NCBI GenBank assembly: GCA_902801585.1
Contig: CADCIU010000058.1
Coordinates: forward strand, 1-11,381
Direction of reading: 5' to 3'
Length of the DNA: 11,381 nucleotides
Source of the DNA: an uncultured Lachnospiraceae bacterium
GTDB taxonomy: Bacteria > Bacillota_A > Clostridia > Lachnospirales > Lachnospiraceae
Both the position numbers and the translations under genes were made by a program. The notes below the pieces were generated by a model. It did no database searches, was not told the origin of the DNA, and saw nothing but the letters and a program-made list of their open reading frames with translations. Positions 666 through 11,381 of the stretch are shown in pieces (position 1 is the first letter of the stretch; each line of letters begins with the position of its first letter).

Positions 666-735
666 ATGTCAAGGGGACGGTTCTTCTGACACCTTTTTGT
701 CCCAAAAGGTGTCAGAAGAACCGTCCCCTTGACAT
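666..735. repeat. Perfect 32-bp inverted repeat (REP-like palindrome)
   Basis: Arms 666-697 and 704-735 are exact reverse complements around a 6-nt loop (698-703). The left arm contains TGTCAAGGGGACGGTTCT (667-684), and the same 18 bases recur at 11360-11377. The element fills the 75-nt gap between the convergent stops at 663 and 741. The RNA from either strand would form a very stable hairpin and could end transcription from both sides, though no T-run follows either arm. From general knowledge, GGGGACGGTTCT palindromes are scattered through many Clostridia genomes and resemble REP-type elements mobilised in trans by IS200-like Y1 transposases. No transposase is in this window. Confidence 0.9.
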
Positions 736-738
736 GTT

Positions 739-1770
739 TCACCAGTTCTCATATCGCTCATGGCGATCAAGAGCTTGGATTCTCTGCATCTCATTTTCCG
801 TCAATTCGAAATCGAAGATATCATAATTCTCCGCAATATGGTCCGGATCAGAGGAGCCCGGAATGGCGATAAATCCTGCCTGGAGCTGCCACCGTAGGAT
901 GATCTGGGCAGAAGACTTTCCATATTTATCAGCCAGTTCTGTAATCACTTCATTTCCGAAGTGCTCTGAAGTGTGTCCCCGGCCTCCAAAAGGATACCAG
1001 GATTCGATCACTATGTTATATTGGCGGACATAATCCTGAAGATCTGTATTTTGATAGTAAAGATGGTTTTCGTTCTGGATGACCGCCGGCGTGATCGTGG
1101 CAAAAGACAGCACCTTGTCGACCTGCTCCTTCGTGTAATAATTGGAGATTCCGATCGACCGGAGCTTGCCGTCTCTTACGGCTTCCTCCATGGCTCTGTA
1201 GACGCCTTCATCATCAGCTCCTGGCTGGTGAATCAGAAGCAGGTCGATGTAATCCACGTTCAGGTCTTTGAGGGCGTCATCAATGATCCCGCCTGCACGC
1301 TCGTAGTTGCCGCCGTAAATCTTGGTGGTGATGAACACTTCTTCCCGTGTGACGATTCCTTCGTCGATCGCTTTTTGAAGTCCGCGTCCGACCCCGACTT
1401 CATTTCCATAGTACCTGGCCGTATCGATCAGGCGCATCCCGGACTCTAAAGCATGGTACACGGAATTCTCAGCCTCGTCGTCGGAAAGGGTCCACGTTCC
1501 AAGTCCGATCACAGGCATCTCATATCCGCTGTTTAAGAGCACGGTTCTTTTTTCGAGATTAAATACGCCTTCGGACTGAGAAAGAGTGGCTGTGGTATTT
1601 CTGCCGCCGGAGGTTTCTCTTTGCGCTTCCTCAGACGAATAGGCAACACCCGTTTTCTCCTCGTCACTCGATTTTAATATGCCGCCTGCGCCACATCCTG
1701 CGAGGAGCAGCATTATGGCAGCAATGGCAAAACAGTGCTTTCCTCTACGCAGGCGATTTCCTGAATTCAT
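739..1770 (-). CDS. Aldo/keto reductase, predicted lipoprotein
   Basis: 343 aa. A basic start and hydrophobic segment (residues 1-25) end in the lipobox LLAGC, with Cys26 as the likely lipidated residue. A Ser/Thr/Glu-rich linker covers about 27-70. The (beta/alpha)8 aldo/keto reductase domain runs from about 72 to 343. The catalytic tetrad is complete: Asp116 and Tyr121 (DTARYYGNE), Lys150 (TTKIY) and His181 (LLIHQP). The cofactor loop reads IPGSSDPDHIAEN (303-315), with Gly305 and His311 where the classical IPKS....R pattern has the Lys and Arg that contact the NADPH 2'-phosphate. The family reduces carbonyls with NAD(P)H and is normally cytoplasmic, so the lipoprotein signal is unusual. 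It starts 16 nt after the stop of the upstream hydrolase-like gene and is probably the last gene of that operon. The fold and family are certain; the substrate is unknown. Confidence 0.92.
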   Translation of the reverse strand: MNSGNRLRRGKHCFAIAAIMLLLAGCGAGGILKSSDEEKTGVAYSSEEAQRETSGGRNTTATLSQSEGVFNLEKRTVLLNSGYEMPVIGLGTWTLSDDEAENSVYHALESGMRLIDTARYYGNEVGVGRGLQKAIDEGIVTREEVFITTKIYGGNYERAGGIIDDALKDLNVDYIDLLLIHQPGADDEGVYRAMEEAVRDGKLRSIGISNYYTKEQVDKVLSFATITPAVIQNENHLYYQNTDLQDYVRQYNIVIESWYPFGGRGHTSEHFGNEVITELADKYGKSSAQIILRWQLQAGFIAIPGSSDPDHIAENYDIFDFELTENEMQRIQALDRHERYENW

Positions 1771-1786
1771 ATGTTTTCACCGACTC

Positions 1787-2788
1787 TTACTGCAAATACT
1801 GATTGAAGAACGACTCCAGCTTATCGAACGGAATCGCATTCTTGCCGCCGCCGTCATAGAGATCCGTGTGGACTGCATCCGGAATGATCATCAGTTCCTT
1901 GTTATCCGCATACTTGCTGTCTTTGATCATGTTTGTATAAGCGTCCCGTGAAAAATAGCAGGAGTGCGCCTTGTCACCGTGAATAATGAGGACCGCGCTG
2001 CGGATCTCATTGCTGTACTGCAGGATCGGCTGATTGATGAAGCTCTCGCAGCCGATGACGTTCCACCCGCCGTTGGAATTGAGGGAACGGGCATGGTAGC
2101 CACGGCTGGTCTTATAGTAATCATAGTAATCCTTAACGAAGAAAGGCGCGTCTTCCGGCAGGGGATCGACGACACCGCCGCCCAACTTATACTCACCGTT
2201 CTTAAGGTCTTCCAACCTCTGAGCACACATGGCTGCCTTCGCCTGGTAGCGGGCTTCTTCGCTGTCTGCAGAGTCAAAATAACCCTTGGCATTCACACGG
2301 GTCATATCGTACATGGTAGAAGCCACCGTTGCCTTGATGCGGGTATCGAGAGCCGCCGTGTTCAGAGCCATGCCGCCCCAGCCGCAGATACCGATGATGC
2401 CGATTCGGTCCGGATCAACTTTATCGCACAGGGACAGAAAATCCACCGCCGCCATGAAATCTTCTGTGTTGATGTCAGGAGATGCCATGTATCGCACGCC
2501 ACCGCCGCTCTCGCCGGTAAAAGACGGATCAAAAGCAACAGTAACAAATCCGCGTTCCGCCATGGTCTGGGCATACAGACCGGAGCACTGCTCCTTGACG
2601 GCTCCAAAGGGTCCGCTCACCGCAATAGCCGGGAACTTTCCCTCCGCGTTCTTGGGAACGTACATGTCTGCTGCCAATGTGATGCCGTATCTATTTACGA
2701 AGGTCACTTTAGAGTGATCGACTTTTTCGCTTTTCGGGAAGGTCTTGTCCCATGCCTTTGTGAGAGTGAGTTCTTCTTTTCTGATCAT
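1787..2788 (-). CDS. Alpha/beta-hydrolase-fold protein with non-canonical catalytic residues
   Basis: 333 aa from the ATG at 2788, which has AAGGAG about 7 nt upstream. An upstream in-frame GTG at 2812 overlaps the preceding gene and has no comparable site. The protein matches the dienelactone-hydrolase/YcjY-like alpha/beta-hydrolase fold: YGITLAADMYVPK (about 34-46), an oxyanion-region AVSGPFG, and the elbow GICGWGG (133-139). Where relatives carry Ser in the elbow (C-x-S-x-G-type alignment), this one has Trp137. The acid position in HGDKAHS (270-276) is Ala274, where a canonical member has Asp. The His is kept (His307, in AVHTDLYD). There is no signal peptide, so it is cytoplasmic. It overlaps or nearly abuts the small upstream gene and precedes the aldo/keto reductase by 16 nt. 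It could be a hydrolase using another nucleophile (Cys135 is near), or a non-hydrolytic binding or lyase member. Confidence 0.85.
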   Translation of the reverse strand: MIRKEELTLTKAWDKTFPKSEKVDHSKVTFVNRYGITLAADMYVPKNAEGKFPAIAVSGPFGAVKEQCSGLYAQTMAERGFVTVAFDPSFTGESGGGVRYMASPDINTEDFMAAVDFLSLCDKVDPDRIGIIGICGWGGMALNTAALDTRIKATVASTMYDMTRVNAKGYFDSADSEEARYQAKAAMCAQRLEDLKNGEYKLGGGVVDPLPEDAPFFVKDYYDYYKTSRGYHARSLNSNGGWNVIGCESFINQPILQYSNEIRSAVLIIHGDKAHSCYFSRDAYTNMIKDSKYADNKELMIIPDAVHTDLYDGGGKNAIPFDKLESFFNQYLQ

Positions 2789-2808
2789 GATTTTCTCCTT
2801 ATTGCTCT

Positions 2809-3033
2809 TCACTGTAGTGTTTTGACTGTCTGCCGGATCAGGAAATCCAGGCAGTCCACTTTTCGCTGGCTCTCATGGAGCTCCTCCATCCGGCTGCATC
2901 GGCATTTTCGAAAGTATTGTATCAGGGCTTTTGTATCGCCTGATTTATAGAGCAGTTTTGCTCTTTCTACCTCCTCGCTTCCGCACCCGGCATCCTTGAG
3001 ATTTGTGAGTATTTCTTCCAGTTCTTCCTTCAT
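2809..3033 (-). CDS. Small cysteine-containing protein of unknown function
   Basis: 74 aa, start ATG at 3033 preceded by GGGAG about 9 nt upstream. The sequence is highly charged and predicted to be all-helical: a first helix (1-14), a short AGCGSEE turn, a second helix (about 20-45) ending in RKCRCSR, and a final helix with the pattern HESQRKVDCLDFLI (53-66). Cysteines are at 17, 44, 46 and 61. The last helix resembles the 'K-x-LD-x-LD-x-I' coiled coil at the C-terminus of MerR-type regulators, but no DNA-binding domain is present. Its stop lies 20 nt before the ATG of the hydrolase-like gene, so it probably opens that operon. It could be a small partner or redox- or metal-responsive protein; this is a guess from the Cys pattern. 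A real gene is likely because the ribosome binding site and start are good and a promoter lies upstream. Confidence 0.7.
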   Translation of the reverse strand: MKEELEEILTNLKDAGCGSEEVERAKLLYKSGDTKALIQYFRKCRCSRMEELHESQRKVDCLDFLIRQTVKTLQ

Positions 3034-3074
3034 GTGTGGTGTCTCCCATACACTTTTTTGCTGTCTGTGAGCTT

Positions 3075-3104
3075 ATTATAGGGGCTTAACAGATACCTTG
3101 CTAA
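3075..3104 (-). promoter_or_regulatory. Putative promoter of the small-protein/hydrolase/aldo-keto reductase operon
   Basis: On the minus strand a perfect TATAAT (3080-3075) lies about 40 nt before the start codon at 3033. The best -35 match is the weak TTAGCA (3104-3099) with 18-nt spacing. A strong -10 with a weak -35 fits a promoter that needs an activator such as the neighbouring LysR protein. A palindrome (3115-3130) sits about 55 nt upstream of the expected start. Confidence 0.5.
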
Positions 3105-3114
3105 TGGGTATAAT
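3086..3114 (+). promoter_or_regulatory. Putative plus-strand promoter pointing into the 3' end of the LysR gene
   Basis: TTAACA (3086-3091), a 17-nt spacer and TATAAT (3109-3114) make a strong sigma-A-type match on the plus strand. It overlaps the minus-strand promoter. No plus-strand gene follows; a transcript from about 3121 would be antisense to the LysR gene. Confidence 0.35.
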
Positions 3115-3144
3115 GAATATCGTGATATTCTTATTTAGAATATC
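3115..3144. promoter_or_regulatory. Operator-like cluster of three GAATATC half-sites
   Basis: GAATATC (3115-3121) and GATATTC (3124-3130) form a 7+2+7 palindrome, and a further GAATATC lies at 3138-3144. The middle copy can pair with either neighbour. Position about 55 nt upstream of the predicted minus-strand start fits an activator site, possibly for the LysR protein encoded at 3209-4072. It also overlaps the predicted start of the plus-strand promoter. The assignment to a regulator is inference. Confidence 0.4.
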
Positions 3145-3154
3145 AGGAAAAAGA

Positions 3155-3206
3155 TACCCCAGAGGTCGTTTTTTCGAGGTCGATTTTTGAAGAGGTCGAT
3201 TTTTGA
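3155..3206 (+). repeat. TACCCCAGAGGTCG element with tandem GAGGTCG units
   Basis: TACCCCAGAGGTCG (3155-3168) is followed by TTTTTT and then two 16-bp units of the form (C/A)GAGGTCGATTTTTGA at 3175-3190 and 3191-3206. The 14-bp core recurs at 4445-4458 inside a gene and at 5740-5753 in an intergenic hairpin. The tandem units end 3 nt before the LysR stop codon. Confidence 0.85.
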
Positions 3207-3208
3207 TG

Positions 3209-4072
3209 TTAGATCGTCTCCCGGACCCGGTCAATAAACATCTGCACCGCCGGCGAGAAGACCTGGTACTTCTTCCAAATCAGATATCCGGCGGACTTCA
3301 TGGAAGGCACGAGAGGCCTCATACACAGAGGGCTGTCCCCGGTCGTGTTAATCAGCTTGTCGAAGCAGATGGCGTACCCAAGCCCGTCTTCCACGAGAAG
3401 GGAGGCATTATAGACAAGGTTGTAGGTGGCAACGACATTCAGCGAGGACACCCCTCCGACGCCCGTCAAATAAGGCTCAGCCGCTCTCGAAATAATGACA
3501 GGGAGACCTCTGAGGTCGGAGAGACAGATTTCCGACTTCTCTGCAAGAGGGCAGTCTTTTGGCATCAGCAGGCCAAAAGAGTCCTCAGCCGGCAGCTCAA
3601 TAGACTGATAGAGAGTGTGGTCCACTTCAGTGAAGATGACAGCAAAATCGATCAACCCGTTGTTCAACTCATCCATCAGGTCCTGCGTGTCCCCGCTGGT
3701 GATATGAAAGCGGATATCCGGGTGCGCTGCAGCAATATCCGCCGCCGCCCGCGAAAGGTAATGGAAGGACCAGGACTCTCCGGCGCCAATCCGCACGGAG
3801 CCCGAGATATGGTTTTTGATCTGCGAGATCTCTTCCTCGGTCATCTGCATCAGGCGCACCATTTCTTCGGCCCTTTTCCGAAGCACCATCCCTTCTTCGG
3901 TGAGCGTGATCTTCCGGTTCCCGCGCGCAAAAAGGGACACGCCGAGTTCCTCCTCCAGTTCCTTCATCTGCCGCGACAAAGAGGGCTGGGCGACATGAAG
4001 CGTCTGAGCCGCCGCGGAAATCGTGCCTTCCCGCACCACTGCCAGATAGTATTGCATTGTTCGTATATCCAT
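3209..4072 (-). CDS. LysR-type transcriptional regulator
   Basis: 287 aa and complete; AAAGGAG sits 7 nt before the ATG. The N-terminal winged helix-turn-helix covers about residues 2-60: the recognition region TISAAAQTLHVAQPSLSRQM (17-36), followed by LGVSLFARGNRKITLTEEG. A linker helix runs to about 88, and the periplasmic-binding-protein-like effector domain from about 90 (GSVRIGAGESWS) to the end. It is transcribed divergently from the hydrolase-cyclophilin lipoprotein (148-nt gap) and lies upstream of the small-protein/hydrolase/aldo-keto reductase operon in the same direction (175-nt gap). By family habit it probably controls both and represses itself. Its promoter overlaps an operator-like palindrome (4107-4128). 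The effector is unknown. Confidence 0.95.
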   Translation of the reverse strand: MDIRTMQYYLAVVREGTISAAAQTLHVAQPSLSRQMKELEEELGVSLFARGNRKITLTEEGMVLRKRAEEMVRLMQMTEEEISQIKNHISGSVRIGAGESWSFHYLSRAAADIAAAHPDIRFHITSGDTQDLMDELNNGLIDFAVIFTEVDHTLYQSIELPAEDSFGLLMPKDCPLAEKSEICLSDLRGLPVIISRAAEPYLTGVGGVSSLNVVATYNLVYNASLLVEDGLGYAICFDKLINTTGDSPLCMRPLVPSMKSAGYLIWKKYQVFSPAVQMFIDRVRETI

Positions 4073-4164: not shown

Positions 4165-4223
4165 AAAGCCATAACAAAGAATTATGCAGATTTTACTCGG
4201 CTGTTATTTAAAAGGAGACTATG

Positions 4224-5669
4224 ATGAGAAAAGGGTTTATGGGAATCATATCGCTGATTATGATATTTTGCCTTGTTCTTTCCGGGTGCGGTTCGGCCCA
4301 GGCAAAAGACAGCGGCAGTGAAGGTACCTCAGAGGTCACTCCCGCAGAGGAAGGCACCTCAGAGGTCGATTCTGATGCGCAAACCACCTCAGAGGTCGGT
4401 TCTGACACGCAAACTACCTCAGAAGTCGATTCTGACACGCAAACTACCCCAGAGGTCGAGGTCGTTTCAGCAGAACAGGCAGAAGAAGGAGAAGAGGCTA
4501 TGTCCGCAGGGACTTACACAACACAGGAAATTTGGGTGCAGAACGGCGATAAAAGGATTTACGGCGTCGCCTATGTGCCTGCATCAGAAGCCGGCAAAAA
4601 AGTGCCGCTTGTGATTTTCTCCCACGAGCTTGGAAACGATCACACGTCCGGCGAGAGGTATGCCGAGAGACTGGCGGAAGCAGGCTACTCGGCTTATGTC
4701 TTTGATTTCTGCGGCGGCACGGTCGGCGGCAACAAAAGTGACGGCAGCAACAATGAAATGTCCATCCTGACCGAGGCGTCGGATTTGGAAGCAGTGCTGG
4801 CGTCTGCCAAAACATGGGATTTTGTTGACCCTGATAAGATCGTGCTTCTCGGAGGCAGCATGGGCGGACTTGTAACAACCGTTGTGGGCAGCACGTATCA
4901 GGACGAGATCGCAGGCATGATCCTCATGTACCCTGCACTGTCCGCCAAGGACGACAGCGGGGCGGAGCAGTATCAATCAGAGGATGAAGTTCCGGAGGAC
5001 GTCAGCCTGTTCGGCGGCTGGATCCATGTGGGCAAAAACTACATCACCGATCTGTGGAAAGTTGATTTCAACCGGCTGCTCTCTTCCTATCAGGGGCATA
5101 TGCTGCTTCTTCACGGCGATAAAGACAGTACTGTTCCGCTCTCTTACTCTGAGGAGGCCAGTAAGATCATCCCGGACTGCGAATTCTATGTGATCAAGGA
5201 CGGCGGGCACGAGTTCTTCGGACAGCCGTTTGAGGATGCGATGAGCTATATTTTGCCTTATCTTGAGGGGCAGCTTAGTGGTGAAAACATATCAGGAACA
5301 TCAGAAAACGAGGAGGGCGAAGCAGTGCTGCAGATGACGATCGGGGAAACCCCTGTTGAAGTGGAATGGGAAGACAATGAATCCGTGGAGGCGCTGAAGC
5401 AGTTGTGCCGAGAAGAGCCCTTGACCATTCAGATGTCTATGTACGGCGGCTTTGAGCAGGTCGGGTCCATCGGGCAGAGCCTGCCTAGAAATGACAGCCA
5501 AACGACCACGCAGGCCGGCGACATCGTTCTTTACTCCGGCGACCAGATCGTCGTTTTCTACGGATCCAATTCATGGGCGTATACCAGGCTGGGCCACATT
5601 ACGGATAAGACCGATCAGGAGCTGGCGGAGCTGCTTGGAAATGGAGACGTGACGATTACAATTGAATGA
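4224..5669 (+). CDS. Lipoprotein: alpha/beta hydrolase fused to a cyclophilin-like domain
   Basis: 481 aa. The second of two adjacent ATGs is chosen because AAAGGAG lies 6 nt before it and only 3 nt before the first (4221). A signal segment ends in LVLSGC with lipid Cys22. Residues 34-83 are five decapeptide repeats of the form TTSEVDSDTQ. The alpha/beta-hydrolase domain (about 98-350) has a complete triad: Ser212 in GGSMGG, Asp301 in HGDKDSTVP and His329 in DGGHEFF. An intact lid region lies between the strands (about 243-285). A linker (about 350-365) leads to a C-terminal domain (about 367-480: VLQMTIGETPVEVEW, LTIQMSMYGGFEQVGS, TTQAGDIVLYSGDQIVVFYG, GHI) of the small cyclophilin-like-fold family. 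The hydrolase domain probably acts as an esterase outside the membrane; the cyclophilin-like domain's role is unknown. It is divergent from the LysR gene, which likely regulates it. Confidence 0.92.
   Translation: MRKGFMGIISLIMIFCLVLSGCGSAQAKDSGSEGTSEVTPAEEGTSEVDSDAQTTSEVGSDTQTTSEVDSDTQTTPEVEVVSAEQAEEGEEAMSAGTYTTQEIWVQNGDKRIYGVAYVPASEAGKKVPLVIFSHELGNDHTSGERYAERLAEAGYSAYVFDFCGGTVGGNKSDGSNNEMSILTEASDLEAVLASAKTWDFVDPDKIVLLGGSMGGLVTTVVGSTYQDEIAGMILMYPALSAKDDSGAEQYQSEDEVPEDVSLFGGWIHVGKNYITDLWKVDFNRLLSSYQGHMLLLHGDKDSTVPLSYSEEASKIIPDCEFYVIKDGGHEFFGQPFEDAMSYILPYLEGQLSGENISGTSENEEGEAVLQMTIGETPVEVEWEDNESVEALKQLCREEPLTIQMSMYGGFEQVGSIGQSLPRNDSQTTTQAGDIVLYSGDQIVVFYGSNSWAYTRLGHITDKTDQELAELLGNGDVTITIE
4323..4472 (+). 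repeat. Five in-frame 30-bp repeats encoding a Thr-Ser-Glu-Val linker
   Basis: Units at 4323, 4353, 4383, 4413 and 4443 encode GTSEVTPAEE, GTSEVDSDAQ, TTSEVGSDTQ, TTSEVDSDTQ and TTPEVEVVSA. Each carries C(T/C)CAGA(G/A)GTC. The last contains CAAACTACCCCAGAGGTCG (4440-4458), identical to 5735-5753 of the intergenic hairpin. The repeats sit between the lipid anchor and the catalytic domain and would form an extended acidic stalk. Confidence 0.95.
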
Positions 5670-5677
5670 TTGTGTGT

Positions 5678-5754
5678 AAAAAGCGACCTCTGGGGTAGTT
5701 TGTGGACAGGTGGTGATTATTCCACATCTGTCCGCAAACTACCCCAGAGGTCGC
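5678..5754 (-). terminator. Long hairpin with T-run: intrinsic terminator of the minus-strand operon
   Basis: Arms 5683-5709 and 5728-5754 (27 nt) pair with one exception, which is a T/G wobble at 5703/5734. The stem can be extended by GTGG/CCAC (5710-5713 with 5722-5725) around an 8-nt loop. Reading the minus strand, the stem is followed directly by TTTTT (5682-5678), a classic intrinsic terminator for the operon that ends at 5792. On the plus strand it starts 14 nt after the lipoprotein stop but has no T-run. The arms are the TACCCCAGAGGTCG repeat and its inverse. Confidence 0.8.
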
Positions 5755-5779
5755 CTTCTCAAAGAGGTCGCCTTCTCAA
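5746..5779 (+). repeat. Exact 17-bp tandem duplication AGAGGTCGCCTTCTCAA
   Basis: Units 5746-5762 and 5763-5779 are identical and adjacent. The first overlaps the right arm of the hairpin. The same kind of arrangement, TACCCCAGAGGTCG followed by tandem AGAGGTCG-N8 units, is seen at 3155-3206. Confidence 0.95.
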
Positions 5780-11324: not shown

Positions 11325-11381
11325 AAAAGGTGTCAGAGGGCGGTTCGGTGTCAAGGGGGTGTCAAGGGGACGGTTCTACTG
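11325..11381. repeat. Partial GGGGACGGTTCT-type repeat at the right edge
   Basis: AAAAGGTGTCAGA (11325-11337) matches the start of the right arm of the palindrome at 704-716, and TGTCAAGGGGACGGTTCT (11360-11377) matches its left arm at 667-684. Between them GGTGTCAAGGGG occurs twice (11347-11358 and 11358-11369). The copy looks degenerate or rearranged, and its other half may lie beyond the window. Confidence 0.75.

Follow-up and report, generated by a model that had tools for sequence, protein, structure and literature searches.

Arms of a RAYT-associated palindromic repeat occur in frame within a lipoprotein linker and other genes of a Lachnospiraceae clade

How one and the same sequence came to form both an intergenic hairpin and part of a lipoprotein is the question raised by the window, i.e. 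the whole stretch of DNA analysed here (11,381 nucleotides of an uncultured Lachnospiraceae bacterium; contig CADCIU010000058.1, assembly GCA_902801585.1). Direct reading and repeat search both recover the 21 bp CGCAAACTACCCCAGAGGTCG, with the same letters, at positions 4438..4458 (plus strand) and 5733..5753, confirming an identity first pointed out in a preliminary description of the locus. The former copy lies in frame within a lipoprotein gene (4221..5669, plus strand; defined by ORF call, Pfam and structure model) and encodes QTTPEV, and the latter is the right arm of the hairpin. The preliminary description read this as a REP-like element that entered the gene, was expanded in frame and was domesticated as a stalk. 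From the evidence set out here, it is very probable that the motif is the conserved arm of a REPIN spread by its cognate RAYT (REP-associated tyrosine transposase), mostly to places between genes, and that some copies entered genes, where single arms were duplicated in tandem and in frame.

The lipoprotein consists of a signal peptide with lipobox, a linker, an alpha/beta hydrolase and a cyclophilin-like domain (PF18050, Pfam). In its structure model (mean pLDDT 63.5), residues 20-95 fall below pLDDT 50 and are followed by the hydrolase and the cyclophilin-like domain. The linker holds five translated REP half-units with a 30-bp period (4326..4457, plus strand; repeat search and orthologue comparison), in which the unit DSDTQTTSEV is repeated to five and the cores encode T(S/P)EV. 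These cores read ACCTCAGAGGTC at 4326-4337, 4356-4367 and 4386-4397, ACCTCAGAAGTC at 4416-4427 and ACCCCAGAGGTC at 4446-4457 (all plus strand); the first four had been described as decayed versions of the fifth, which they are, except that one reads CCTCAGAAGTC and not CCTCAGAGGTC. The hairpin, a REPIN between convergent genes (5680..5757, without strand; repeat search, fold and blastn), is composed of two inverted REP arms with 12 nt in between, the outer ends of its 12-mer cores being at 5685 and 5752, and folds as single-stranded DNA with -36.2 kcal/mol (z -13.8). The 14-bp core TACCCCAGAGGTCG is found in a third place, 3155-3168, as had also been reported, within a lone REP arm that follows the 3' end of a LysR-type gene and has tail repeats of 16 bp (3155..3206, plus strand). 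Both intergenic copies have their tails duplicated alongside, a feature absent from the preliminary description, the right arm of the hairpin with a 17-bp tail in tandem (AGAGGTCGCCTTCTCAA twice; 5746..5779, plus strand, repeat search) and the single arm with one of 16 bp (3161-3206). Allowing at most one mismatch, CCYCAGAGGTC matches the window 10 times against 0.46 expected, and none of 200 shuffles exceeds 2.

The motif is found well beyond this locus. In relatives of the window's organism, which are metagenome assemblies and the source of all copy counts, the exact 12-mer ACCCCAGAGGTC occurs in 18 of 61 genomes of the genus (16 with 5-235 copies, two with one), and the reversed 12-mer, used as control, once each in four of the same 61. 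Among the 18 genomes that supplied the first 18 loci, four contain ACCCCAGAGGTCG (105 copies in G001, 136 in G002, 102 in G017 and 6 in G018) and none its reversed form. Across the family, in 397 genomes drawn from a larger group, a sample that leaves out G002 and G017 (both included in the genus scan), the 13-mer is found in seven, with 105 copies in G001 and one in each of the other six, and is absent from 390; reversed, it occurs once in each of two. The count of coding against intergenic positions proposed in the preliminary description gives, for 605 kb of relatives' contig pieces, most of them chosen for holding the repeat, 519 copies with at most one mismatch, 451 outside and 68 inside genes, as called by a simple in-house codon-usage caller under which genes cover 81% of the sequence. 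Copy density is uneven, 59 of 185 exact copies in G001 lying in about 33 kb of one contig and 66 of 223 in G002 in about 32 kb, and the pieces G001:C2:1-20000 and G001:C21:1-20000 contain zero copies. The motif is a member of a REP/REPIN family found in one Lachnospiraceae clade, and its bearers are some rumen bacteria. Two other kinds of element were considered and rejected: a phage origin, the 19-mer having 0 exact matches in viral_contigs, and an integron-like cassette array, suggested by about one repeat per gap in G002:C13 and L001 and dropped because the genes point in different directions and each element is a symmetric pair.

Neighbouring copies within 120 bp of each other are tail to tail in 108 cases, on the same strand in 176 (91 + 85) and head to head in 3. 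Tail-to-tail pairs include 55 at a spacing of 38 bp and 34 at 56 bp, corresponding to palindromes of about 50 and 68 bp, measured from the outer end of one 12-mer core to that of the other, with arms GACCTCTGGGGTAGTTTGT / ACAAACTACCCCAGAGGTC; the hairpin of the window is of the 56-bp class. At three inner stem positions of the short class, Watson-Crick pairing holds in 32, 32 and 33 of 40 distinct elements, compared with shuffled means of 19.0, 19.6 and 22.2 and maxima of 27, 27 and 28; the same three positions of the long class show no excess (12, 20 and 19 of 34 versus 13.5, 16.9 and 17.6 when shuffled). The arm contains GTAG (GGGGTAGTTTG), but internally, away from the outer end, and is open in five of six frames, with the peptides QTTPEV, KLPQRS, NYPRGR, TSGVVC and DLWGSL. 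Several of the properties by which REPs and REPINs are recognized are observed: a short palindrome of high copy number, mostly extragenic, in inverted pairs of fixed spacing and flanking a cognate RAYT. A different arrangement is seen in the pieces read of G462:C42 (L281, L282), in which the arm forms 17-bp head-to-tail arrays, 22 same-strand neighbours being spaced by exactly 17 bp, whereas the copies of G001, G002 and G017 pair at 38/56 bp.

The link to a transposase was analyzed in 15 Y1 transposases (PF01797) from G001, G002, G017 and G018, with flanks of up to 1.5 kb. Four of them, one in G001, two in G002 and one in G017, are flanked on both sides by the repeat and constitute a single RAYT subfamily, and the other 11 have zero copies in these flanks. 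This RAYT exceeds the cut-off of PF01797 (Y1_Tnp) and scores 66.3 bits with NCBIfam NF047646 (REP_Tyr_transpos), for which the cut-off is 80. In the genus, a RAYT of at least 50% identity and near full length is encoded by 12 of the 16 repeat-bearing genomes versus 0 of the 45 others (Fisher 1e-9), each of the 12 having 12 copies or more of the repeat. The repeat-bearing genomes devoid of a close RAYT are G421 (5 copies), G434 (19), G453 (17) and G018 (7), the last with a RAYT fragment containing stops. In the genus sample, 20 RAYT loci, one per genome, were compared, 12 close and 8 distant (36-43% identity). Copies with at most one mismatch flank 11 of the 12 close loci, the exception being the 2.8-kb locus of G432 with zero copies nearby, and 0 of the 8 distant ones. 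Of the genomes with distant loci, seven are free of the repeat and one contains a single copy, which makes this a weak control; the comparison of Y1 transposases within genomes is the better one. From the association observed, we infer that the RAYT moves the repeat. GGGGACGGTTCT, the 12-mer of a second palindrome of the window, occurs near 6 of the 8 distant RAYT loci but near 0 of the 12 close ones, suggesting two repeats, each with a RAYT lineage of its own. Another three RAYT-like genes (L142, L144 and L145; G001, G002 and G017) have neither the repeat nor GGGGACGGTTCT beside them. This second palindrome of the window, REPIN-like, lies at 663-738 (GGGGACGGTTCTTCTGACAC; 35-bp arms, 97% complementary, with a half copy at 11347-11381), which may belong to another RAYT lineage.

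Alignments also point to in-frame insertion of the repeat in other conserved proteins, namely CarB, TrpF, a UvrA-family protein and a DUF362 lipoprotein. In G017 and G001, CarB contains inserts encoded by the repeat at two sites, the first near residue 440 (EQTTSGVVCTSGAESTSGVSC) and the second, of four units, near 565 (EQMTPEV...EQTTPEV...GTPEV...EQTTPEVEVENE); the CarB fragment of G002 spans the second site alone and has two units. Both inserts are absent from the outgroup CarB proteins of G004, G005, G006 and G009, and those of G018 and G003 have other residues at the same two loops, so that these sites are permissive; none of the repeat's peptides was seen in the long in-frame CarB inserts of L200 (G018) and L198 (G003), one of which, near residue 926 in L200, has about 75 residues and contains internal repeats. 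For TrpF, G017, G001 and G002 share an insert in the PRGR frame; by alignment, in which the G003 row was left out as being in a wrong frame, it is absent from G004 and G018, and in G005 two matches leave no more than 9 nt for the insert stretch. An insert in the PQRS frame is found in the UvrA-family protein of the same three genomes and is missing from G003-G006, and G018 has a different one. In the DUF362 lipoprotein a whole REPIN is translated in G001 and G017, and is absent from L007, the single outgroup compared. The repeat is probably translated also in PyrG, GltD and MurT, as judged from the genes themselves rather than from outgroup alignments. G421, which lacks a close RAYT, has five copies, three of them inside the genes for PyrG (543 residues against 529 model positions in the alignment), GltD and GltB; MurT of G001 holds three copies in the sixth frame, in which a changed base avoids the stop, and in G454 the repeat occurs in MurT and at the C-end of PurF. 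Within the same gene, the distance between same-strand neighbours is divisible by three in 26 of 28 cases, both exceptions being in one GH2 gene, versus 55 of 158 between genes (p 5e-9); this count includes orthologues repeatedly, and gene callers by nature favour kept frames. The expansion in frame that had been proposed for the linker is supported.

A search with the lipoprotein yielded 302 relatives, of which 80 loci were kept. Comparison of unit number, also proposed earlier, reveals 1-5 linker matches to T(P/S)E(V/A/I), at several positions, in 35 of the 120 homologues listed (out of 2314 found), and these nearly all rank at the top of the 120; the other 85 have zero, some of them being fragments or longer proteins whose linker was trimmed away by the script used. 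The closest among the matches listed (P0002) has, by eye, one 10-residue unit fewer than the window. Within the genus, G003 (zero repeat copies) and G464 (one copy) have linkers without the unit. At the DNA level, the 11 T(P/S)EV units of the window, L001, L002 and L017 are all exact or near ACC CCA GAG GTC, and not repeats in unrelated codons: five are exactly ACCCCAGAGGTC, three are ACCTCAGAGGTC, differing by a C-to-T change alone (Pro to Ser), and the remaining three show one or two synonymous substitutions, in one case together with the Pro-to-Ser C-to-T. Eight of the 11 read ACC(C/T)CAGAGGTC, and the C-to-T form occurs between genes too (e.g. L001:6138). Among the loci compared, the window is nearest to G017, G001 and G002 (blastn, 89-90% over 667-3171 and 82-85% around the lipoprotein), and the REPIN behind the lipoprotein gene is in the orthologous place in G001 and G002 (blastn).

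Domestication in the strict sense, i.e. selection of the units as an acidic Thr/Ser/Pro/Glu tether that holds the hydrolase off the membrane, with selection on length driving the expansion, appears doubtful. The units do lie between the lipobox and the hydrolase, where the model gives no structure with confidence, their reading frame is kept, and they recur at several linker positions with the QTTPEV frame in the orthologues read. However, outgroup orthologues manage with unrelated linkers, the number of units ranges from 1 to 5 within the clade, and the same repeat is translated in other frames in cytosolic enzymes, which points to tolerance. Moreover, 20 distinct frame-0 coding copies have 32, 12 and 19 substitutions at codon positions 1, 2 and 3, giving no indication that the peptide is protected, in a test that is small and biased, its copies having been found by DNA similarity. 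The stalk function put forward in the preliminary description is therefore not favoured.

As to the route of entry, recombination or template switching with a neighbouring REPIN, the RAYT having made the intergenic population alone, is an unlikely alternative to insertion that nevertheless accounts for several observations. The lipoprotein gene of the window, like those of G001 and G002, is immediately followed by a REPIN; the lipoprotein linker, like the CarB interdomain site, holds single arms in one orientation and no whole REPIN; and same-strand arms at irregular spacing are common in the contigs read (the 176 neighbours above). Insertion explains more simply the inserts in CarB, TrpF and the DUF362 lipoprotein, the last with its whole REPIN, and the single arms at both sites imply that either half an element or a decayed REPIN may have been what entered. 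A distinct situation is encountered at L269:1351-2901 (G417), which appears to be a gene fusion across a REPIN: a lipoprotein orthologue without the hydrolase is joined in frame, by way of a translated REPIN (CLTSGAVCRQMW...STNYPRGQ), to another protein that looks aldo/keto reductase-like by its start.

The reverse direction, in which the repeat arose from the lipoprotein coding sequence and then spread to intergenic places, had been left open and is now very improbable. The coding units of the window are numerous and in one frame, yet the clade has many intergenic inverted pairs with a linked RAYT, the coding copies are a minority distributed over many unrelated genes and several frames, and lipoprotein orthologues from outside the clade lack the units. 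The abundance of the repeat, its mostly intergenic position, its tie to one RAYT lineage and the same absence of units outside the clade uphold instead the entry of a REP-like element into the gene. Chance or codon bias, by which TPEV would merely resemble the repeat, has next to no probability and is excluded for the linker by the 21-bp identity, the 10 matches versus 0.46 expected, the lack of the 13-mer in 390 of 397 family genomes and the codons common to 8 of 11 linker units, although a few matches inside genes look natural (SDLRGLP of the LysR-type gene at 3505-3517, GH1 and the C-end of UvrA). Such matches, i.e. VDLWGY of GH1, GTPEV at the UvrA C-end, SDLRGLP of LysR and LRGR of HypB, look natural rather than inserted when judged by the motifs of their protein families. 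At the LysR-type site, SDLRGLP is encoded by the palindrome GACCTCTGAGGTC, common to the window, L001 and L002, and L017 and L018 read LSDLKGL; the palindrome may be either a natural coincidence or a product of conversion by the repeat.

Taken together, the preferred reading is that of a non-autonomous palindrome of about 50 or 68 bp that would be spread by the RAYT in one Lachnospiraceae clade, filling gene gaps in some stretches of the chromosome and now and then entering genes, presumably by insertion and not by gene conversion. In-frame insertions would be tolerated in permissive loops and linkers, where they could survive because five of the arm's six frames are free of stops. After entry, single arms would be duplicated in tandem in steps that are multiples of three, lengthening the tether, with slippage or unequal exchange as the likely expander. 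The added residues would be near-neutral, mostly tolerated and not needed.

That translation of an intergenic repeat is rarely described in bacteria, as had been supposed, is half right. Translated palindromic repeats are already known, among them the Rickettsia palindromic elements (RPE; PMC2229807), REPs within ORFs of several species (PMC3733652) and PARCELs (PMC2996958), and the present repeat comes in addition with its own matching transposase and in-frame copy-number variation. The repeat resembles the REPIN/RAYT systems outlined by Bertels and Rainey (2011, PMC3116915) in being a short palindrome with many, mostly intergenic copies, in forming inverted pairs at fixed spacing and in having one RAYT lineage that it flanks and co-occurs with. 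Unlike those systems, as far as they are outlined there, it has GTAG inside the arm and not at the outer end, its copies are strongly clustered in stretches of about 30 kb, and some are translated in core enzymes. REP superfamilies have been defined by a GTAG or CGTC tag at one end, REPs wholly within ORFs have been reported from uvrA and other repair genes, some grouped and encoding 43-82 residues, and the GTAG-23 REP family of T. roseum is clustered in large blocks (PMC3733652). The present family is alike in its translated copies, in having a UvrA-family gene among its hosts and in its block-like clustering. The words Firmicutes and Clostridi are absent from that paper, and its section on genome distribution describes no case of one arm multiplied in tandem to form a lipoprotein tether with 1-5 units.

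RPEs are likewise palindromic, and occur both between genes and fused in frame in conserved protein genes, but at 105-146 bp (PMC2229807) they are longer than the approximately 50 or 68 bp found here, where in addition a linked transposase lineage is visible; the repeat is thus not an RPE by size, though RPE-like in behaviour. PARCELs, 25-residue amphipathic domains encoded by repeats with dyad symmetry, share with it the coding dyad-symmetric DNA, the variable number and the presence in surface lipoproteins (PMC2996958), and differ from it in that its unit has about 10 residues (30 bp) and its DNA is mainly intergenic. Among the papers listed by full-text literature searches, with few subscription journals, none was seen on this family or on REP arms expanded into Lachnospiraceae lipoprotein tethers, and those listed for RAYT together with Firmicutes were unrelated microbiome papers.

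The finding links two phenomena described before, the upkeep of REPIN populations by a RAYT and the translation of palindromic repeats in conserved proteins. Related species that differ by degrees in copy number show both, so that entry, in-frame expansion and persistence once the transposase is lost can be put in order and subjected to tests. There is also a caution: an unusual loop or a T(P/S)EV-type linker in these genomes can be mobile DNA of recent origin instead of a conserved protein feature. A further reading, put forward with little confidence, is that the REP-RAYT pair acts as a running supplier of linker sequence that invades loops and tethers, varies in copy number and leaves coding copies that can outlast the transposase, for which G421, with three of its five copies in genes, would be an example; being open in five of six frames, the arm would be 'translation-safe' and so able to invade loops of CarB, PyrG, GltD, TrpF and MurT. 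If this were true, the pair would provide these bacteria with rapidly adjustable linkers.
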